This document shows positions 15,746-61,749 of a stretch of DNA of 64,000 nucleotides, one piece after another. The position numbers and the translations under genes were made by a program. Position 1 is the stretch's first letter. Each line of letters opens with the position of its first letter. The DNA is from Zhihengliuella flava (GTDB lineage Bacteria > Actinomycetota > Actinomycetes > Actinomycetales > Micrococcaceae): contig NZ_JADOTZ010000001.1 in NCBI RefSeq assembly GCF_015751895.1, forward strand, positions 1,550,001 through 1,614,000, read 5' to 3'. A model generated the notes under the pieces. That model had not been told where the DNA came from, ran no database searches, and saw only the letters and a list, made by a program, of their open reading frames with translations.

Positions 15746-16065
15746 GCTCACCACCTGTCGTGCGGTACTTGCCCGACCGGTTTTCCGGTGGGCCGAATCG
15801 TCACCTGGAGCACCCCACTACCGAGGAGAGGGTTGCCGTTCAACGAGCCAGGGCTTTACGTTGAATCTCTTGATTCAGTCCCCACGTTACGGTCCGTGGC
15901 GCACCGTGGCCAAGGCGGGCCGCAATATTTCGCAAGGTTGCCACCGCCCCAGGGGCCACCAACGCCGAGGGGCGCGCCGTCGTCGTCCGTTAAACGCGTG
16001 AGGCCCCACCCACTCGGGGCGGGGCCTCACGGCCGAAGTCCGGGAGCGGCTATCGCCGCGGCCAG
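15746..16065. other. Gene-free spacer between flavin reductase gene and rplI
   Basis: 320 bases without a credible ORF. A small hairpin (ACCGG-TTTT-CCGGT) sits near 15778-15792 above the flavin reductase gene, and the rplI terminator is at its right end. I saw no known riboswitch pattern. Confidence 0.5.
15998..16030 (-). terminator. Terminator of the rpsF-ssb-rpsR-rplI operon
   Basis: A 10-bp perfect stem (gtgaggcccc with ggggcctcac) and 13-base loop lie 35 bases beyond the rplI stop, followed in the leftward direction by GCGTTTAAC. Confidence 0.75.
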
Positions 16066-40302: not shown

Positions 40303-41292
40303 GTGGCCACTGAAGCAGCAGATTCGATCCGCGACGTCATCATCGTCGGTTCCGGTCCGGCCGGATACACGGCGGCGATTTACACGGCTCGGGCCAACCT
40401 GAACCCATTGGTCATCGCAGGATCGGTGACGGCCGGCGGCGATCTCATGAACACCACCGAGGTGGAGAACTTCCCCGGCTTCCCCGAGGGAGTCCAGGGG
40501 CCGGAGCTCATGGAGCACATGCGCGCGCAGGCGGACCGCTTTGGCGCTGAGATCCAGTACGAAGACGTCGAGTCCGTCGAGTTGAACGGGGACCTCAAGA
40601 CGGTCACGTTGGCCAGTGGCGCCGTCTACCGCGCCCGGGCCGTCATCCTTTCCACGGGATCGGCCTACCGCGAGCTGGGCCTACCGGGCGAGAAAGAACT
40701 CTCCGGCCACGGGGTGTCGTGGTGCGCAACCTGTGACGGTTTCTTCTTCCGGGATCAGGAAATCGCCGTCGTCGGCGGCGGTGATTCGGCGATGGAGGAG
40801 GCGCTCTTCCTCACCAAGTTTGCTTCGAAGGTCACCGTCATTCACCGGCGCGACTCCCTCCGCGCCTCGCAAACCATGGCGGACCGCGCGTTGGCAGAGC
40901 CGAAGATCGAATTCGTCTGGAACAGTGCGGTCGATGGATTCGAGGGTGAAGACAAGCTGACAGGAATCAAGGTCCGGAACCTGCTCGACGATTCGGTGAC
41001 CTCACTGCCTGTGACCGGCTTGTTCGTGGCGATCGGGTCCGACCCGCGCGTGGACCTCGTCAAGGACCAGTTGGAGCTGACGGCGGACGGAAACGTGGCC
41101 GTGCAGGGGCGCACGTCGAAGACCAGCATCGCTGGCGTGTTCGCCGCGGGCGACGTCATTGACCCCACCTACCGTCAGGCCATCACTGCTGCAGGCTCCG
41201 GTTGTGTTGCCGCCATCGACGTCGAGCACTACCTCGGTTCCCTCACGCCGGCTGCGGAGGCGGCTCAGCCCGCCGAGTCGGCCATCGTCTAA
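40303..41292 (+). CDS. trxB: Thioredoxin-disulfide reductase
   Basis: NADPH-dependent FAD enzyme that reduces thioredoxin. It has 329 residues. FAD site [20 protein letters not shown], redox disulfide WCATCDG, NADPH site [15 protein letters not shown] with HRRDSLRAS, and GVFAAGDV are all intact. GTG start after a weak GAGAGG. First gene of trxB-trxA, behind an oxidative-stress promoter. Confidence 0.98.
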
Positions 41293-41327
41293 GATTCGCT
41301 GTTAACCGTCATCGAAAGGATTCACTC

Positions 41328-41651
41328 ATGAGCAATGCAAAGGACGTCACGGACGCCTCGTTCCAGGCTGACGTACTGGAAAACAGCAAGCCCGTCATCG
41401 TGGATTTCTGGGCAGAGTGGTGCGGCCCGTGCCGCATGCTCTCTCCGATCCTGGATCAGATCGCCGAGGAGCACGCCGAGAAGGTTGACGTCGTCAAGGT
41501 GAACGTCGACGAGAACCAGGGCATCGCCGCGAAGTACGGCATCACCTCGATTCCAGCCGTCTTCGTTTTCAAGGATGGCGAGCACGTGGCCAGCTCCATT
41601 GGCGCCAAGCCCAAGCAGGTCATCGAGCAGGAGTTCGCCGAGTACCTCTAG
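41328..41651 (+). CDS. trxA: Thioredoxin
   Basis: It has 107 residues with active site FWAEWCGPCRMLSP and the cis-proline in TSIPAVFVF. ATG follows GAAAGGA, 35 bases after trxB, so both are expressed together. A strong intrinsic terminator follows. Confidence 0.98.
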   Translation: MSNAKDVTDASFQADVLENSKPVIVDFWAEWCGPCRMLSPILDQIAEEHAEKVDVVKVNVDENQGIAAKYGITSIPAVFVFKDGEHVASSIGAKPKQVIEQEFAEYL

Positions 41652-41964: not shown

Positions 41965-42006
41965 TCAGGGCGGTGGGTGTTTCACGTGAAACACCCACCG
42001 CCCTGA
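41965..42006. repeat. Perfect 42-bp palindrome centred on parS
   Basis: The two 21-base arms, starting TCAGGGCGGTGGGTG, are exact reverse complements and meet at the centre of parS. It begins 26 bases beyond the parB stop and can act as parB terminator while carrying a ParB site. A parS element is only 16 bp; the extra 13 bp of symmetry on each side needs its own explanation. Confidence 0.9.
41978..41993. promoter_or_regulatory. parS: parS site 1 (perfect)
   Basis: TGTTTCACGTGAAACA equals the universal 16-bp parS consensus. Nucleates ParB. Confidence 0.93.
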
Positions 42007-42031
42007 ACTCTGCCTCGCTCCAGTCTGTCAG

Positions 42032-43420
42032 CTATGACGTGGCGTCAGGGGCAATCAGGCCCATGATTCGGTTGAGGTCGTCGACGCTAGCGAACTCGAT
42101 GGCGACCTTGCCCTTCTTGGCGCCCAGAGAGATCTTGACGTTGGTATCCAGACGGTCGGACAACGAGTTGGCTAGGTAGTCCAGTCGCTCGTGACGTGCT
42201 GTGCTCTTCGGCTTCGCCTCGCGACGCTTCTTCTCGACCCCTTCGTTCATAGCCACGGCTTCCTCCGTGGCGCGAACGGACAGGCCCTCCGCGACAATCC
42301 GCTGAGCCAAACGCTCTATCTCGGCAGGATCGGACAGGGCGAGCAGGGCACGAGCATGCCCCTGACTGAGCACGCCCGCTGCTACCCGCCGTTGCACCAA
42401 GGGCGGAAGCTTCATGAGACGTATCGTGTTGGAGATTTGCGGGCGGGACCGCCCAATCTTGGCGGAGAGCTCATCTTGAGTGCACCCGAACTCATCAAGC
42501 AATTGTTGATAGGCCGCAGCTTCCTCCAGTGGATTCAGTTGGGACCGGTGCAGGTTCTCGAGCAGAGCGTCACGAAGCAAGTCCTCATCCGTGGTTTGCC
42601 GAACGATCGCCGGGATCGTCTCGAGTCCAGCTGCTTGCGTTGCTCTCCACCGACGCTCACCCATGACCAGCTCATAGGTCGCATCTTCTTGTTCCGTCGA
42701 GGGACGGACGACGATCGGCTGCAGCAGGCCGATCTCACGCACCGAGTGGACCAGCTCAGCCATCTCGTCCTCATCGAAGACCTGACGAGGCTGTTTTCTG
42801 TTGGGATGGATGTCCGTGACGGCAATTTCGGCGAAGCTAGCGCCCGGTACTGGTACCAAATCGCCCTGCACGGACTCCGACGACGGGCTGGGGTCTACCT
42901 GTCCTGCAGCTTCAAGGGGCTCCGATGGCGTCGACGCACTGCGGCTGCGCGCCTGTCCGATCACGTCCGGCATCTGCGGACGTTTGGTTGTCCGTGAGGT
43001 CTTGGACCGTGCCTGGCTCGACGCAGCGCGTGCCGGCTGCTCGTGATCATCATCGGCGGCTCGCCCGGGAGTGAAGAACATATCAACGGGACGCGACTTG
43101 CTCGTCGAGGCACCAGTCGCTGAGCCACCACTGGAGCGGGACGAGCTGGACTTCGACTTCGAACCCGGGGCGTTGCGGCTTCCCGCACCCTTGGTTGCGG
43201 ATTCGCCCTGAGCGCCCTCAGGAGCCTTGTCTGCGCCTCCAGAAGCCTTTCGCGCTGCCGTGCTGCTACGCTGCCGCGTAGAAGCGCCTGAAGCCTTCTG
43301 AGTGGCTTTGGGGGCGTCTTGATCGGGCGCCTCTTCTATGGCGGTATCCGTCTCACCAGCAGGCGAACTCGAGATCAAGGCTCCTAGCCCGCGGCCCAGT
43401 CCTCGACGCTTTTCAGCCAT
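42032..43420 (-). CDS. parB: Chromosome-partitioning protein ParB
   Basis: CTP-dependent clamp that loads at parS. It has 462 residues, longer than usual because about 190 N-terminal residues are low-complexity Ser/Ala/Lys after the [16 protein letters not shown] ParA-interacting start. Core motifs: [17 protein letters not shown], the CTP/Arg patch [12 protein letters not shown], and the helix-turn-helix [18 protein letters not shown]. The C-terminal dimerisation segment is present. ATG follows GAGAGG. Unusually it is not directly after parA. Confidence 0.96.
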
Positions 43421-43531
43421 GTTTTTCCTCTCGAATAGCATCGCAGACCTCACAGCCTGCCGCACTTGATGGCTGCTATCTTACTCGGCGAATTCAGGTG
43501 CAGCCTGCATACTCGGCGGTGGCGCGTACAG

Positions 43532-43547
43532 CGTTTCACGTGAAACA
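43532..43547. promoter_or_regulatory. parS: parS site 2
   Basis: CGTTTCACGTGAAACA, perfect 14-bp core, one outer base changed. About 110 bases above parB, so it may couple ParB binding to parB expression. Confidence 0.9.
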
Positions 43548-43755
43548 CGTCGTCCGAGAGCACGGCCCGCACGTACGAGCAGCACCTCCCTAGACCACTT
43601 CTCAGCCCCATCACCTCACCGGATGCTCGCCCCAGCACCGGCTCGTCCGCCTCAAGGCGGCACACGACTGCGTGCCTCACTGAGGCCGCAGCACGCGCGG
43701 TCTTCGTCAGGCCAACGTGAAACGGAGAGTCCTTGCGGATACCGGCGTCGAGTCA

Positions 43756-43771
43756 CGTTTCACGTGAAACC
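43756..43771. promoter_or_regulatory. parS: parS site 3
   Basis: CGTTTCACGTGAAACC, perfect 14-bp core. Confidence 0.9.
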
Positions 43772-44005
43772 AACGTGCTTCCACGCCTCGTTCTGCCGTG
43801 GTGCGTGGGCGAACACGTCTCCCTGTCAGTGCTTCCGCTCCCCTCGTGTCAACAGCGTAGGATTCGTCACCATGGCTTCAGGGATCACCTGTTAGATCAC
43901 GCATCATGACCGCGTCGTGGAGCCGTGCGGAGACTTCCATATCTGCCAACGCATCGCTGATGAATGCTGTGACAGGCCACGAATGGCTGGCAAGCGTCAG
44001 GATCG

Positions 44006-44021
44006 TGTTTCACGTGAAACT
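44006..44021. promoter_or_regulatory. parS: parS site 4
   Basis: TGTTTCACGTGAAACT, perfect 14-bp core. Confidence 0.9.
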
Positions 44022-44724
44022 CAGTTGCCGCTCTCGTCCGGCATTGAGGTGCGACCGACGTGTCAGCGGGTGGCAGTAGACAAGCCCTGGGTCCCTTGCC
44101 TCCGTGCCGCATTGAGATGCTCTCAAACTTGGACTCTCAAAACTGCCTCGCAAACTCCCCCCTCGCCCGGTCATGCCGCCGGCTGAGCAACGACCCAGGA
44201 AGCGAGCAGCTCTTGATGTTTTGGTCGGGCTCAGACCAACCTGCTGATCAAGTCTTCTCCTAAATAGTCCGAAAGCAACATCGCGATGCACTCGCCTTAG
44301 ATAGGAGCACATCCGATCTTTATGCTGGGATGCATCGCCACCAGTGCAACACGCTCTCCGAGGCATTCACACTTAAGGGAAGGCACGTCCGGCACGAGCA
44401 ACCGGGGCCGCTCGCCTAGATACCCCCTCATCCGCGATCTAGGAGCGAAGTCACCAAACTAAACAGCCGGACATAGTTGAATGCTGCGCTTTACGATGCA
44501 GACGCTCTTCTTCGCGAGATCGGCGGGCCATCATTATCCCCTCTCCCGTTCCCGTCGCGGGAAGACACGGGTAGGCCCAAGCAGTCAAGCCGTTCCACCC
44601 CAGTGTTCGGCCCCGTCAATCGCTACCAATCATGATGCCGGAGAACCGCATGCGTGACGTCAGCCGGCCCTTACTCACCTAGCTCAATGGCTCCCGATAC
44701 GGGCAACGGCCACGTGCTGGTCCG

Positions 44725-44740
44725 CGTTTCACGTGAAACA
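44725..44740. promoter_or_regulatory. parS: parS site 5
   Basis: CGTTTCACGTGAAACA, perfect 14-bp core. Confidence 0.9.
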
Positions 44741-45135
44741 CGATCACCGGTGCGTAGCACCCGATCATGAGCTCGAGAGGATCAGGTCATCATGAGCCGA
44801 TACGGTAGATCTCGGCACCACAATGCACTCCCCCTGCGCTGGAGCCGCACTCGTGGTGGGAGGATCAGGTTGTCAGATCTGTCCGCTGTCGTTGAACGAG
44901 CATGCAGACCACCATGCATGCGGGGCTAGGACAGCTCGCGAGCACCTTTCCAATGAAGAGTGATCGAAGCCCGCCGCGCGTCTTCAAGGTCTCCATCACG
45001 TTGTGCAGGCGGGCTTCAGGTCCGGCTTTGCCCTGCCACACTACCCATATACCGGACTTACCCAAATCACTAATGTTCCCGTGTCCCCTGACAGAAGTAT
45101 CGCCACGAACCGTGTTTCTTCCTCCGCACGCATCA

Positions 45136-45151
45136 TGTTTCACGTGAAACG
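45136..45151. promoter_or_regulatory. parS: parS site 6
   Basis: TGTTTCACGTGAAACG, perfect 14-bp core. Confidence 0.9.
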
Positions 45152-45480
45152 CACACCGCTGCGGAAGGTCGAAGGGCACAGCATAGACGCTGCATCATCG
45201 CTTCAGACGCTCGCTTCGACGTAGCTCGCGACGTTGCTGGCCAAACAGAGGTCACTGCCTGGCCACCGTAGATCCTGGATTCTCCCGCAGCCTCCACGGG
45301 CCTCAGATGCAGTTGCGCCTGAGCGTTGTCTTCGCAAACGTTTTATGGCCTTGACTCAGGCCAGAAAGGGCGCCGCTGAGCTGGACTCAGCGTCCACGCG
45401 ACCTCCGCCAATGGCGTACTCAACCGTTGACATGCAGCTAGCTTCAACCCGCGTCGCGCCAGGCAGGTAGATCGAGAGCT

Positions 45481-45496
45481 CGTTCCACGTGAAACA
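45481..45496. promoter_or_regulatory. parS: parS-like site 7 (one core change)
   Basis: CGTTCCACGTGAAACA, with T to C at one core position; probably a weaker ParB site. Confidence 0.65.
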
Positions 45497-45687
45497 TCGC
45501 CCTACCCAGTCGCGACGGCACGGATGGACTGCACTCCCCTAGCCACCAGACGGCGTGCTAGTCCGCTGGGCTATACCAGATCGCCGCAGAGGCCTGTTGA
45601 ACTGGGGACAGCGTATATGCACGTCACATCATGATGCCTGAGGGAACGCTTCTCGACTCATAGTGCCTCCCCCGCCCAACGCGTGCA

Positions 45688-45703
45688 CGTTTCACGTGAA
45701 ACC
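45688..45703. promoter_or_regulatory. parS: parS site 8
   Basis: CGTTTCACGTGAAACC, perfect core, about 60 bases past the parA stop codon. Confidence 0.9.
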
Positions 45704-45763
45704 TCGTGAGGTGCAGCCACATCGCGACGAGCCGATGCCAAAACGGTGAGCAGCAGGCCAGCG

Positions 45764-46882
45764 CTAGCTCTGGCTGACCCCACGGTCCGCAATTTCCGTC
45801 GCCGCTTCCATATAGGACAACGCACCCGAGGAACTGCGATCATAAGTGATCACGGACTGTTGGTAGCTGGGCGCCTCGGAAATCCGCACGCTGCGCGGAA
45901 TAACCGCTTCAAGGACTTCATTCGGGAAGTGATTGCGGACTTCTTGGGCCACCTGGGCGGCGAGATTGGTCCGACCGTCATACATGGTCAACAAAATGGT
46001 GGAGACCACCAGTTCATCGTTGAGGTGTTTCTGAATCATCTCAATGTTCTTGAGCAGCTGACTCAGCCCCTCTAGCGCGTAGTATTCGCACTGGATGGGG
46101 ATCAACACCTCACGTGCAGCCACAAACGCATTGACGGTGAGCAAGCCGAGGCTGGGCGGGCAGTCAATGAAAACATAGTCCAGGCGCTCGAGGCCGTTCT
46201 GTTCACGGTACTTGCCATACTGCTCCAAGGCCCTGCGCAGTCGCTGTTCACGGGCGACCAAGGACACGAGCTCGATTTCGGCCCCTGCGAGGTCGATCGT
46301 GGCCGGAGCAACCACCAAGTGGTCTAGATCAGGACAGGGCGCGACGACGTCCTGGAGGGGCAGGTCGTTGATCAGCACGTCATAGATGCTGTCCACTTCG
46401 GAGTGGTGTTCAATGCCCAGGGCCGTAGAGGCGTTGCCCTGGGGGTCGATGTCCACCACCAAAACGTTGAGGCCGGCCTGAGCCAACGCTGCAGCGACGT
46501 TGACCGTCGTCGTCGTTTTGCCGACGCCGCCCTTCTGATTGCTGATGGTGAAGAATCGCGTCCGGTCAGGCTTGGGAAGCTCGCGACCTTTGAGACGCTC
46601 GCGCCGCTTGTTCTCATTGACCAGCTGGCTCGCCAGCGGGGTGCTTTCGTCCATGCTGTCCATCATGTTCGGAACCCGTGCCTTTAGTTGTTGATCTACC
46701 GATCCAGCCTCACGCAACCCGGTATGTGCTGCCGATGTTTCATGTGAAACATTCCCGATTCCATCGGAAACAACTGAATCAGGGTGATTCTTAGGGTGAT
46801 CTCTCCCTGAACCGACGGTCTCGTCTAACCCGGCTCCCCTGAGGGACGTGAACGACGGAATCCGTCCGCCATGTTCTTTCAC
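45764..46882 (-). CDS. parA: Chromosome-partitioning ATPase ParA
   Basis: Walker-type ATPase that moves ParB-parS complexes. It has 372 residues from a GTG behind GGGGAG. About 105 residues precede the ATPase core; the deviant Walker A KGGVGKTTT is at 117-125, VVDIDPQGNAS and VFIDCPPSLGLL follow. Shorter starts (Met73, Met74 or Met77) are possible, which matters because a parS-like site lies in codons 45-49. It is downstream of rsmG, 58 bases apart. Confidence 0.95.
   Translation of the reverse strand: MKEHGGRIPSFTSLRGAGLDETVGSGRDHPKNHPDSVVSDGIGNVSHETSAAHTGLREAGSVDQQLKARVPNMMDSMDESTPLASQLVNENKRRERLKGRELPKPDRTRFFTISNQKGGVGKTTTTVNVAAALAQAGLNVLVVDIDPQGNASTALGIEHHSEVDSIYDVLINDLPLQDVVAPCPDLDHLVVAPATIDLAGAEIELVSLVAREQRLRRALEQYGKYREQNGLERLDYVFIDCPPSLGLLTVNAFVAAREVLIPIQCEYYALEGLSQLLKNIEMIQKHLNDELVVSTILLTMYDGRTNLAAQVAQEVRNHFPNEVLEAVIPRSVRISEAPSYQQSVITYDRSSSGALSYMEAATEIADRGVSQS
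46736..46751. promoter_or_regulatory. parS: parS-like site 9 inside the parA 5' region
   Basis: TGTTTCATGTGAAACA differs from consensus at one central base. If the long parA start is right, it encodes Val-Ser-His-Glu-Thr; if a shorter start is used, it lies in the parA leader. Confidence 0.7.
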
Positions 46883-46940: not shown

Positions 46941-47570
46941 TCACGCCTGCCCGACTGCGATACGCACAACCGTGGTCGGTTCCTCGAGAACATCAGCCCC
47001 AGCCGTCAGGACCTCCGTCTCTTTCGCCCCCAGTTTCTTGAGCACCTTCCTGGCCTTCTCGATCTCTTCCGCTGCGCTGCGTCCCTTAAGGGCCAACAGT
47101 TCTCCCCGGCCTTGCAATAACGGGATCGTCAGGTTCGCGAGCTTGTTCAGCGCAGACACCGCACGGGCCGTCACAACATCAACATCGACCTCATTAAAGA
47201 ACTGCTCGGACCTCCCGCGCAGGACGCGTACGTTCGTCAGCTCGAGATCCTCGATTACTTCGTTGAGCCAGATGCACCGACGCTCAAGGGGCTCAATCAA
47301 CGTCACCGCCACGTCCGGACGAGCGATCGCAAAGGTGAGCCCTGGAAGCCCGGCACCACTGCCGACATCGGCCACTGTGGCCTCACGATCAATGAGATCC
47401 GTGACGACGGCGCAGTTCAGTACGTGCCGACTCCACAGTCGAGGAACCTCCCGGGGTCCGAGAAGCCCCCTCTCAATGCCAGTGGTCGCCAGGTGTTCCA
47501 CGTAGCGCTCAGCGAGCGCCAAGCGCTCACCGAACACCTGCTCGGCCGCTGCGCGTTCCACCGCGGTCAT
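46941..47570 (-). CDS. rsmG: 16S rRNA (guanine-N7)-methyltransferase
   Basis: Methylates the 16S rRNA 530-loop guanine using SAM. It has 209 residues; the SAM site VADVGSGAGLPGLTFAI, the LIEPLERRCIWLNEV segment and VVTARAVSALNKL are family signatures. ATG follows GGAGGAG; an in-frame GTG five codons upstream is an alternative. Between jag and parA, as usual. Confidence 0.97.
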   Translation of the reverse strand: MTAVERAAAEQVFGERLALAERYVEHLATTGIERGLLGPREVPRLWSRHVLNCAVVTDLIDREATVADVGSGAGLPGLTFAIARPDVAVTLIEPLERRCIWLNEVIEDLELTNVRVLRGRSEQFFNEVDVDVVTARAVSALNKLANLTIPLLQGRGELLALKGRSAAEEIEKARKVLKKLGAKETEVLTAGADVLEEPTTVVRIAVGQA

Positions 47571-47677
47571 CGCGTACTCCTCCACTGCTGCCCCTTCCGG
47601 CTGCCGGGCCGTCCAGCGCCCGGATGATGAACCGAAAACGGGCGGCCTCACGGACCGCCCGTTCCTTCGGATGAAGA

Positions 47678-61444: not shown

Positions 61445-61518
61445 GGGCGTATAGCTCAGGCGGTTAGAGCGCTTCGCTGATAACGAAGAGGTCCCAGGTT
61501 CAAGTCCTGGTACGCCCA
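61445..61518 (+). tRNA. tRNA-Ile (GAT anticodon)
   Basis: The acceptor GGGCGTA pairs with TACGCCC; D-arm AGCTCAGGCGGTTAGAGC; anticodon GAT at 61479-61481; T-loop GGTTCAAGTCC. 74 nucleotides, 3' CCA not encoded. It is not in an rRNA operon; the same tRNA follows gyrA in mycobacteria. Confidence 0.97.
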
Positions 61519-61544
61519 CGGAATCCCCTACATCAGGAGGAACA

Positions 61545-61661
61545 ATGCGGAAACTGCTCGCAGTCGCCGCCGCCGTTCTCTCCATCGTGGCTTACAAGAA
61601 GTGGCGGGAAACCGAACAAGAAAAGGCAGTCTGGCAGCAAGCCACTGATCGAGTAGACTGA
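61545..61661 (+). CDS. DLW-39-like micro-protein, 38 residues
   Basis: ATG follows AGGAGG at ideal spacing. A short hydrophobic helix (KLLAVAAAVLSIVAYKKW) is followed by a charged tail ending AVWQQATDRVD. This placement between tRNA-Ile and tRNA-Ala and the overall pattern match the actinobacterial DLW-39 family, although the DLW tripeptide itself reads AVW here. Function unknown. Confidence 0.8.
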   Translation: MRKLLAVAAAVLSIVAYKKWRETEQEKAVWQQATDRVD

Positions 61662-61668
61662 CCCATAC

Positions 61669-61741
61669 GGGGGCATGGCGCAATTGGTAGCGCATCTGCT
61701 TTGCAAGCAGAGGGTTAGGGGTTCGAGTCCCCTTGCCTCCA
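61669..61741 (+). tRNA. tRNA-Ala (TGC anticodon)
   Basis: The acceptor GGGGGCA pairs with TGCCTCC (one G-U); anticodon stem TCTGC/GCAGA with loop TTTGCAA, anticodon TGC at 61702-61704; T-loop GGTTCGAGTCC. 73 nucleotides, CCA not encoded. Confidence 0.97.
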
Positions 61742-61749
61742 CCGTAATG

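Follow-up and report, generated by a model that had tools for sequence, protein, structure and literature searches.

A gene-free island of parS sites lies between parB and parA in Zhihengliuella flava and recurs within the Micrococcaceae

In the chromosome of Zhihengliuella flava, parB and parA are separated by a stretch of DNA that carries an array of parS sites and no recognizable gene. We consider it probable (about 0.65) that this island is the centromere of the chromosome, a parS array for ParB loading set in a gene-free field, in which the number and spacing of the sites rather than the sequence are selected, and which split the parAB operon. ParB loads at parS, forms a clamp with CTP and slides along the DNA. 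Compact or intergenic parS clusters are already known; the aspect that appears new is a kilobase-scale parS island, free of genes, which separates parA from parB and whose size and number of sites are kept as its sequence drifts. The island bears on whether ParB clamps need clear DNA and on what sets parS number and spacing, questions so far investigated chiefly in a small number of model bacteria.

The island and its genes in Z. flava

The window, by which we mean the whole 64,000-bp stretch of DNA analysed, corresponds to bases 1,550,001–1,614,000 of a genome of 2.9 Mb in a single contig. The genes of the region are arranged in the order trxB, trxA, parB, gap, parA, rsmG, jag and yidC, the jag match scoring below its curated cut-off. 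The features of the locus are as follows, with a strand given for the genes.

41202..41651, plus strand: trxA frame, flanking, beyond parB on the far side
41979..41992: parS, exact, between trxA and parB
42032..43420, minus strand: parB, 462 aa (ParB_N, HTH_ParB, ParB_C)
43421..45763: the parB-parA gap, a gene-free island of parS sites, 2,343 bp, without coding periodicity; found in 5/5 genus members examined
43533..43546: parS, exact, island
43757..43770: parS, exact, island
44007..44020: parS, exact, island
44726..44739: parS, exact, island
45137..45150: parS, exact, island
45482..45495: parS near match GTTCCACGTGAAAC, island; the same variant is aligned to it in genomes G002 and G003
45689..45702: parS, exact, island
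45764..46882, minus strand: parA, longest frame, 372 aa
46737..46750: parS near match GTTTCATGTGAAAC, probably ahead of the true parA start
46941..47651, minus strand: rsmG, flanking gene

The limits of the gap are set by the parB start codon at 43418–43420 and the parA stop beginning at 45764, which confirms the distance of 2,343 bases given in a preliminary description of this DNA. ParB contains N-terminal, helix-turn-helix and dimerisation domains (PF02195, PF17762 and PF23552) and matches solved Spo0J/ParB chains, and ParA is a Walker-type ATPase of the AAA_31 family whose gene is the neighbour of parB across the gap. Judged from their sequences, both proteins are of the standard chromosomal ParABS kind, with CTPase activity predicted for ParB. 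The parS sites near parAB are of the TGTTNCACGTGAAACA type, as in a chromosomal ParABS locus, but the operon adjacency of parA and parB that is also looked for in such a locus is missing here because of the 2,343-bp gap. Adjacency is usual for chromosomal ParABS systems and does not define them.

Searching for the 14-bp core GTTTCACGTGAAAC with at most one mismatch returned nine parS-like sites in the window, all within 41979–46750 (4,772 bp), and none in 100 shuffles. Six exact sites and one near match lie in the gap, at successive spacings of 224, 250, 719, 411, 345 and 207 bp. The preliminary description had reported this content, the 207–719-base spacings and the nine sites within 4.8 kb correctly, and the array supports its impression of a dedicated centromere. 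It had also counted a site in parA; this near match does fall within the longest parA frame, but the true parA start is probably near 46663, and the site at 46737 would then lie upstream of it, in the extension of the frame. The rest of the 2.9-Mb chromosome has one more site with a single mismatch, GTTTCACGCGAAAC, at genome position 1649433, outside the window and about 53 kb from the cluster.

DnaA-box-like sites are found at 50.5–50.6 and 52.3–52.5 kb, beside a 536-aa frame that occupies the usual place of dnaA (a placement by position, not by profile). The island would lie about 5–7 kb from this probable replication origin. Two further observations concern other parts of the window: a SAM-IV riboswitch at 15760–15875 on the minus strand, and genes for tRNA-Ile (gat) and tRNA-Ala (tgc) close together at 61445–61743, near the probable origin.

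Several measures agree with the earlier claim that the gap has no credible coding sequence. The contrast in GC content between codon positions, in 300-bp windows, is 0.093 for the gap, close to that of the shuffled gap (0.082), versus means of 0.22–0.49 for the neighbouring genes. The longest open frame has 141 codons, compared with a shuffle mean of 166. Among the 16 gap ORFs of at least 50 aa lying wholly or mainly within the gap, the 10 that were tested gave no Pfam match, and Rfam gave no match in the gap at gathering thresholds; conserved coding genes and known RNAs were thus sought and not found. The gap accounts for most of a 3,225-bp run with little coding periodicity, the longest in the window (the next measures 1,050 bp), which extends into the 5' part of parB and slightly into parA. 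With a GC content of 0.596 the gap is AT-richer than the window (0.658) and parB (0.623), and about 4% of the window's 2,343-bp stretches are as low. The earlier statement that it is AT-richer than its flanks fails for parA, as the GC content of parA is itself 0.590.

Recurrence of the island and derivation of the split

In the genus of the window, the gap measures 2,019–2,343 bp and holds 6–8 sites in all five genomes examined, so the gap is no assembly artefact. For the family we compared 97 Micrococcaceae loci from 31 genera, the window included; L103 and L108, in which no parA was found, and the duplicates L063 and L064 were left out. An island, defined as two or more parS sites in a parA-parB gap of 500 bp or longer, is present in 45 of the 97 loci and 11 of the 31 genera and absent from 52 loci, proportions that are not frequency estimates because sampling leaned towards island-bearing genera. 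The comparison with relatives called for by the preliminary description thus shows that the gap recurs across the family. The parB start carries the usual motif in 87/97 family loci and 38/45 islands; the gap lengths of the other seven islands are lower bounds, since their starts are uncertain and the furthest one was taken. Island length is not fixed everywhere, as gaps in genus g13 range from 103 to 2448 bp.

The GC content of the gap is lower than that of its locus in 45/45 islands, and no more than two windows show coding-like periodicity in 42 of them. The three exceptions with more periodic windows are G055, with an IS110-type transposase, G078, with an IS481-type one, and G016, whose gap gave no Pfam match in its two tested frames. 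The IS481-type element occupies gap offset 1009–2076 in L106 (G078) and the IS110-type element gap offset 2322–3650 in L113 (G055), so islands are not always gene-free. In G157, a close sister of G078, the gap is 1.1 kb shorter and the first three parS offsets are shared. Among 22 gaps of at least 400 bp that were tested, 20 had no ORF that was homologous to one from a different locus. The g11 pair G052/G075 departs from this; its homologous frames run on both strands and lack codon periodicity, and were read as similarity of the DNA rather than as genes. A hidden gene in the window gap was likewise rejected, on the grounds of codon periodicity, the Pfam search of 10 of the 16 ORFs and these 20 of 22 gaps.

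Outside the family the arrangement is compact. In 30/30 genomes representing 17 further families of the order, examined as two sets of 10 and 20 with their parB starts checked, the parA-parB gap is at most 139 bp, with no parS inside and no gene between. Six of these genomes failed a strict start-motif rule (five from the larger set, one from the smaller), and a near-motif start gives them gaps of at most 14 bp. The earlier contention that parA and parB are truly split here and adjacent or overlapping otherwise is therefore upheld, and the uniformly compact outgroups indicate that the split is derived within the family. A quick tree of ParB+ParA with 68 rows, 21 of them island-bearing, requires seven changes of the island state, at least four of them on well-supported branches; the tree has several long branches and was built without bootstrap. 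On it the place of the field beside parB has changed at least four times, by gain, loss or movement, and the operon may have split more than once. As a separate observation, G104:C1:3300793-3301605 holds a ParB match with one in-frame TAG.

Sites are kept while the spacers drift

Across 41 genomes, 220 of 238 exact parS sites fall within the loci around parB, and in 33/41 genomes all of them do (G124, counted among the 33, has no exact parS at all). The main exception is G006, with 4 of its 11 exact sites in the locus. Beyond the 14-bp core only the adjacent base is clearly biased in 117 gap sites, with Y before and R after.

The DNA between the sites behaves differently. The sister genomes G003 and G002 share six island sites at the same offsets within 20 bp; the interior of the gap is 65.0% identical, compared with 63.5% when shuffled (SD 1.2, same scoring). 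Elsewhere in this pair ParA is 98.6% identical, the trxA-parB intergenic DNA 86.4% and 4-fold sites about 65%. Flanks beside matched sites are only slightly more similar than mismatched controls (0.447 versus 0.367), and a looser local alignment covers 35% of the gap at 66%. In three g4 pairs 3–5% of the gap could be aligned, as opposed to 94–97% of the trxA-parB intergenic DNA. In more distant pairs both the gap and the neighbouring intergenic DNA are often unalignable. In the search for a conserved RNA inside the gap, the parts of the genus gap alignment listed showed conserved blocks only beside parB and around some sites. In same-genus pairs, then, the spacers are mostly unalignable while parS presence and number persist, and in some genera (g4) the number and place of the sites also turn over. 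Hypermutation of the spacers was considered and dropped, since in the near-identical pair G078/G157 the gap is 95.6% identical and 4-fold sites 96.7%; no special mutation rate is needed.

Close neighbours among the sites are scarce. In the islands with three or more sites and a length of at most 3.5 kb (41 of 45, the length limit excluding G052 and G075), 11 of 212 spacings are shorter than 60 bp, against 45.9 expected from random placement, an expectation that arises partly from placements that would physically overlap. Taking one median p per genus gave a Fisher p of 7e-5, to be read with the reservation that related genomes are not independent. When the end sites were held in place and long islands were admitted, the per-genus p was 7e-4 (38 islands), and for the fields downstream of parB in other genera, again with end sites fixed, 7e-7 (25 fields). 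In the long islands of G052 and G075 the sites are clustered rather than even.

Possible function and alternative explanations

If the island is a centromere, ParB dimers would load at each of its parS sites, close as CTP-dependent clamps and slide into the DNA between sites, where they would build the partition complex for the action of ParA and SMC in segregation. Selection would retain the parS sites, their number and their spacing, together with enough clean DNA in between, and leave the spacer letters free to drift. In the Micrococcaceae the field would have grown inside the old parAB operon, with the result that parA ended before the field, in line with the hairpins after parA in most islands (see below), and parB came to be read from its far side, presumably by a promoter of its own. 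The gene-free, and perhaps transcriptionally quiet, state may aid clamp spreading or may merely reflect silencing of genes there. In the cited part of PMC10681803, transcription by RNA polymerase and Bacillus subtilis ParB condensates leave each other undisturbed in vitro, a result that, as far as that part goes, weakens the case for a strong need for quiet DNA. The 52 of 97 family loci without an island also count against the centromere reading, as does the compact Caulobacter cluster inside genes in the cited passages of PMC5815017. Further points against it are the insertion elements in two islands, the variable gap length of g13, the clustered sites of G052 and G075, the partial alignment of the G003-G002 gap under looser scoring and the weak parA hairpin of the window. 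We put forward more tentatively, and with some doubt, the broader proposition that in the Micrococcaceae selection acts on the length of the centromere DNA and on the spacing of its sites rather than on sequence, to provide a gene-free loading field for ParB clamps, and that the operon was possibly split repeatedly for the same physical need.

The field might instead serve mainly to uncouple parB from parA, with ParB at the proximal parS repressing its own promoter. In all seven g4 genomes (L041, L095, L114-L118) the first parS lies 43–48 bp before parB, and in 6 of 11 g13 genomes it lies at 109–112 bp, while the other sites drift. Hairpins after parA would fit as well: 36/45 islands have a stronger hairpin in the 120 nt that follow parA than in mid-gap (Wilcoxon p 1.5e-6), with values of -26.8 to -32.8 kcal/mol in the four other members of the genus. 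The corresponding hairpin of the window is weak (-15.6), and no strong one was found within 120 nt after its parA. There is also a precedent in Pseudomonas aeruginosa, where ParB represses parS-adjacent promoters according to the cited part of PMC7022226. However, one site would be enough for such control and 6–8 spread sites would be unneeded, first offsets in g1 range between 113 and 255, and around the window gap there are no promoter-like sites (1.3 expected by chance) and six terminator-like ones (4.1 expected), counts that tell little. We therefore judge regulation improbable as the main role of the field. ParA and ParB may plausibly be controlled separately, and the fixed proximal parS of g4 hints at parB autoregulation there.

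Three other accounts do without selection for a loading field. Clustered parS might lead to silencing by ParB that removes genes and lets unselected DNA accumulate, the gene-free state itself being useless. The low GC content of all 45 gaps and the free drift of the spacers fit unselected DNA, and two islands tolerate insertion elements. Bacteria tend to shed unused DNA, yet a length of about 2 kb persists in 5/5 genus members with strongly diverged spacers, and close neighbours are scarce; we regard this account as unlikely. The scarcity of close neighbours might itself be mutational. Since parS copies are identical short repeats, slippage could delete close ones and produce the clear deficit below 60 bp without selection, but pairs 34–38 bp apart persist in g4, g6, g11 and g14 genomes, and the upkeep of sites and of length would be left unexplained. 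Slippage concerns spacing only and is compatible with the centromere reading; as the cause of the spacing we rate it below even odds, though above the passive and the regulatory accounts. Finally, the preliminary description had offered a remnant of lost genes that parS sites colonised. Kilobase-scale non-coding DNA is indeed unusual in the window, whose next low-periodicity run is less than half as long as that of the gap. But the 30 outgroups, whose gaps never exceed 139 bp and never hold a gene, make lost genes an unlikely source, as does the lack of ORF homologues in 20/22 gaps; the Pfam search of 10 window ORFs, which covered intact frames, adds to this by giving no match. We give this suggestion very little credence.

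Relation to other parS arrays

In Corynebacterium glutamicum, ten parS sites, nine of them intergenic, extend over 35 kb on one side of oriC and 73 kb from it, as set out in the cited part of PMC7083940. The two systems are alike, within what that part covers, in their actinobacterial ParB, the 16-bp parS consensus and the mostly intergenic sites, and differ in that here nine sites fall within 4.8 kb, and the gene-free parB-parA gap alone holds seven. In Caulobacter crescentus the five strongest sites fit into 5 kb at a distance of about 8 kb from ori, and ParB spreads about 2 kb per site (cited passages of PMC5815017). It shares with Z. flava a compact cluster, near the probable origin in the latter, but its sites are described in those passages as lying within essential or high-cost genes, whereas the island is gene-free, unconstrained in sequence and splits parAB. 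Among the literature matches listed we found no gene-free parS island between parA and parB and nothing on parS layout in the Micrococcaceae, which does not imply absence in print. Given that sites stand in a gene-free gap in 45/97 loci and that spacer letters have drifted in same-genus pairs, the effects of spacing, density and transcription could be tested on natural variants, and the island could be rebuilt with random spacers.

Other genera of the Micrococcaceae also have counterparts. Among the 52 island-less loci, whose parA-parB gap is smaller, 41 have at least two parS sites downstream of parB, and 177 of 191 such sites lie in stretches without coding periodicity, although periodicity discriminates poorly when GC is moderate, and several of these stretches reach the edge of the locus. 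These downstream fields resemble the island in being mostly without coding periodicity and in having few close neighbours; they differ in lying beyond parB, with parA and parB nearly adjacent, whereas the window island splits the two genes. Island-less loci carry 6.2 sites per locus and island loci 8.2, some loci being incompletely covered. In island-less genera (for example at loci L045, L089 and L090) the downstream cluster often lies in long stretches without coding periodicity; a frame of about 400 aa in this interval is matched by homologues at 11 further loci and was not detected at the remaining ones.
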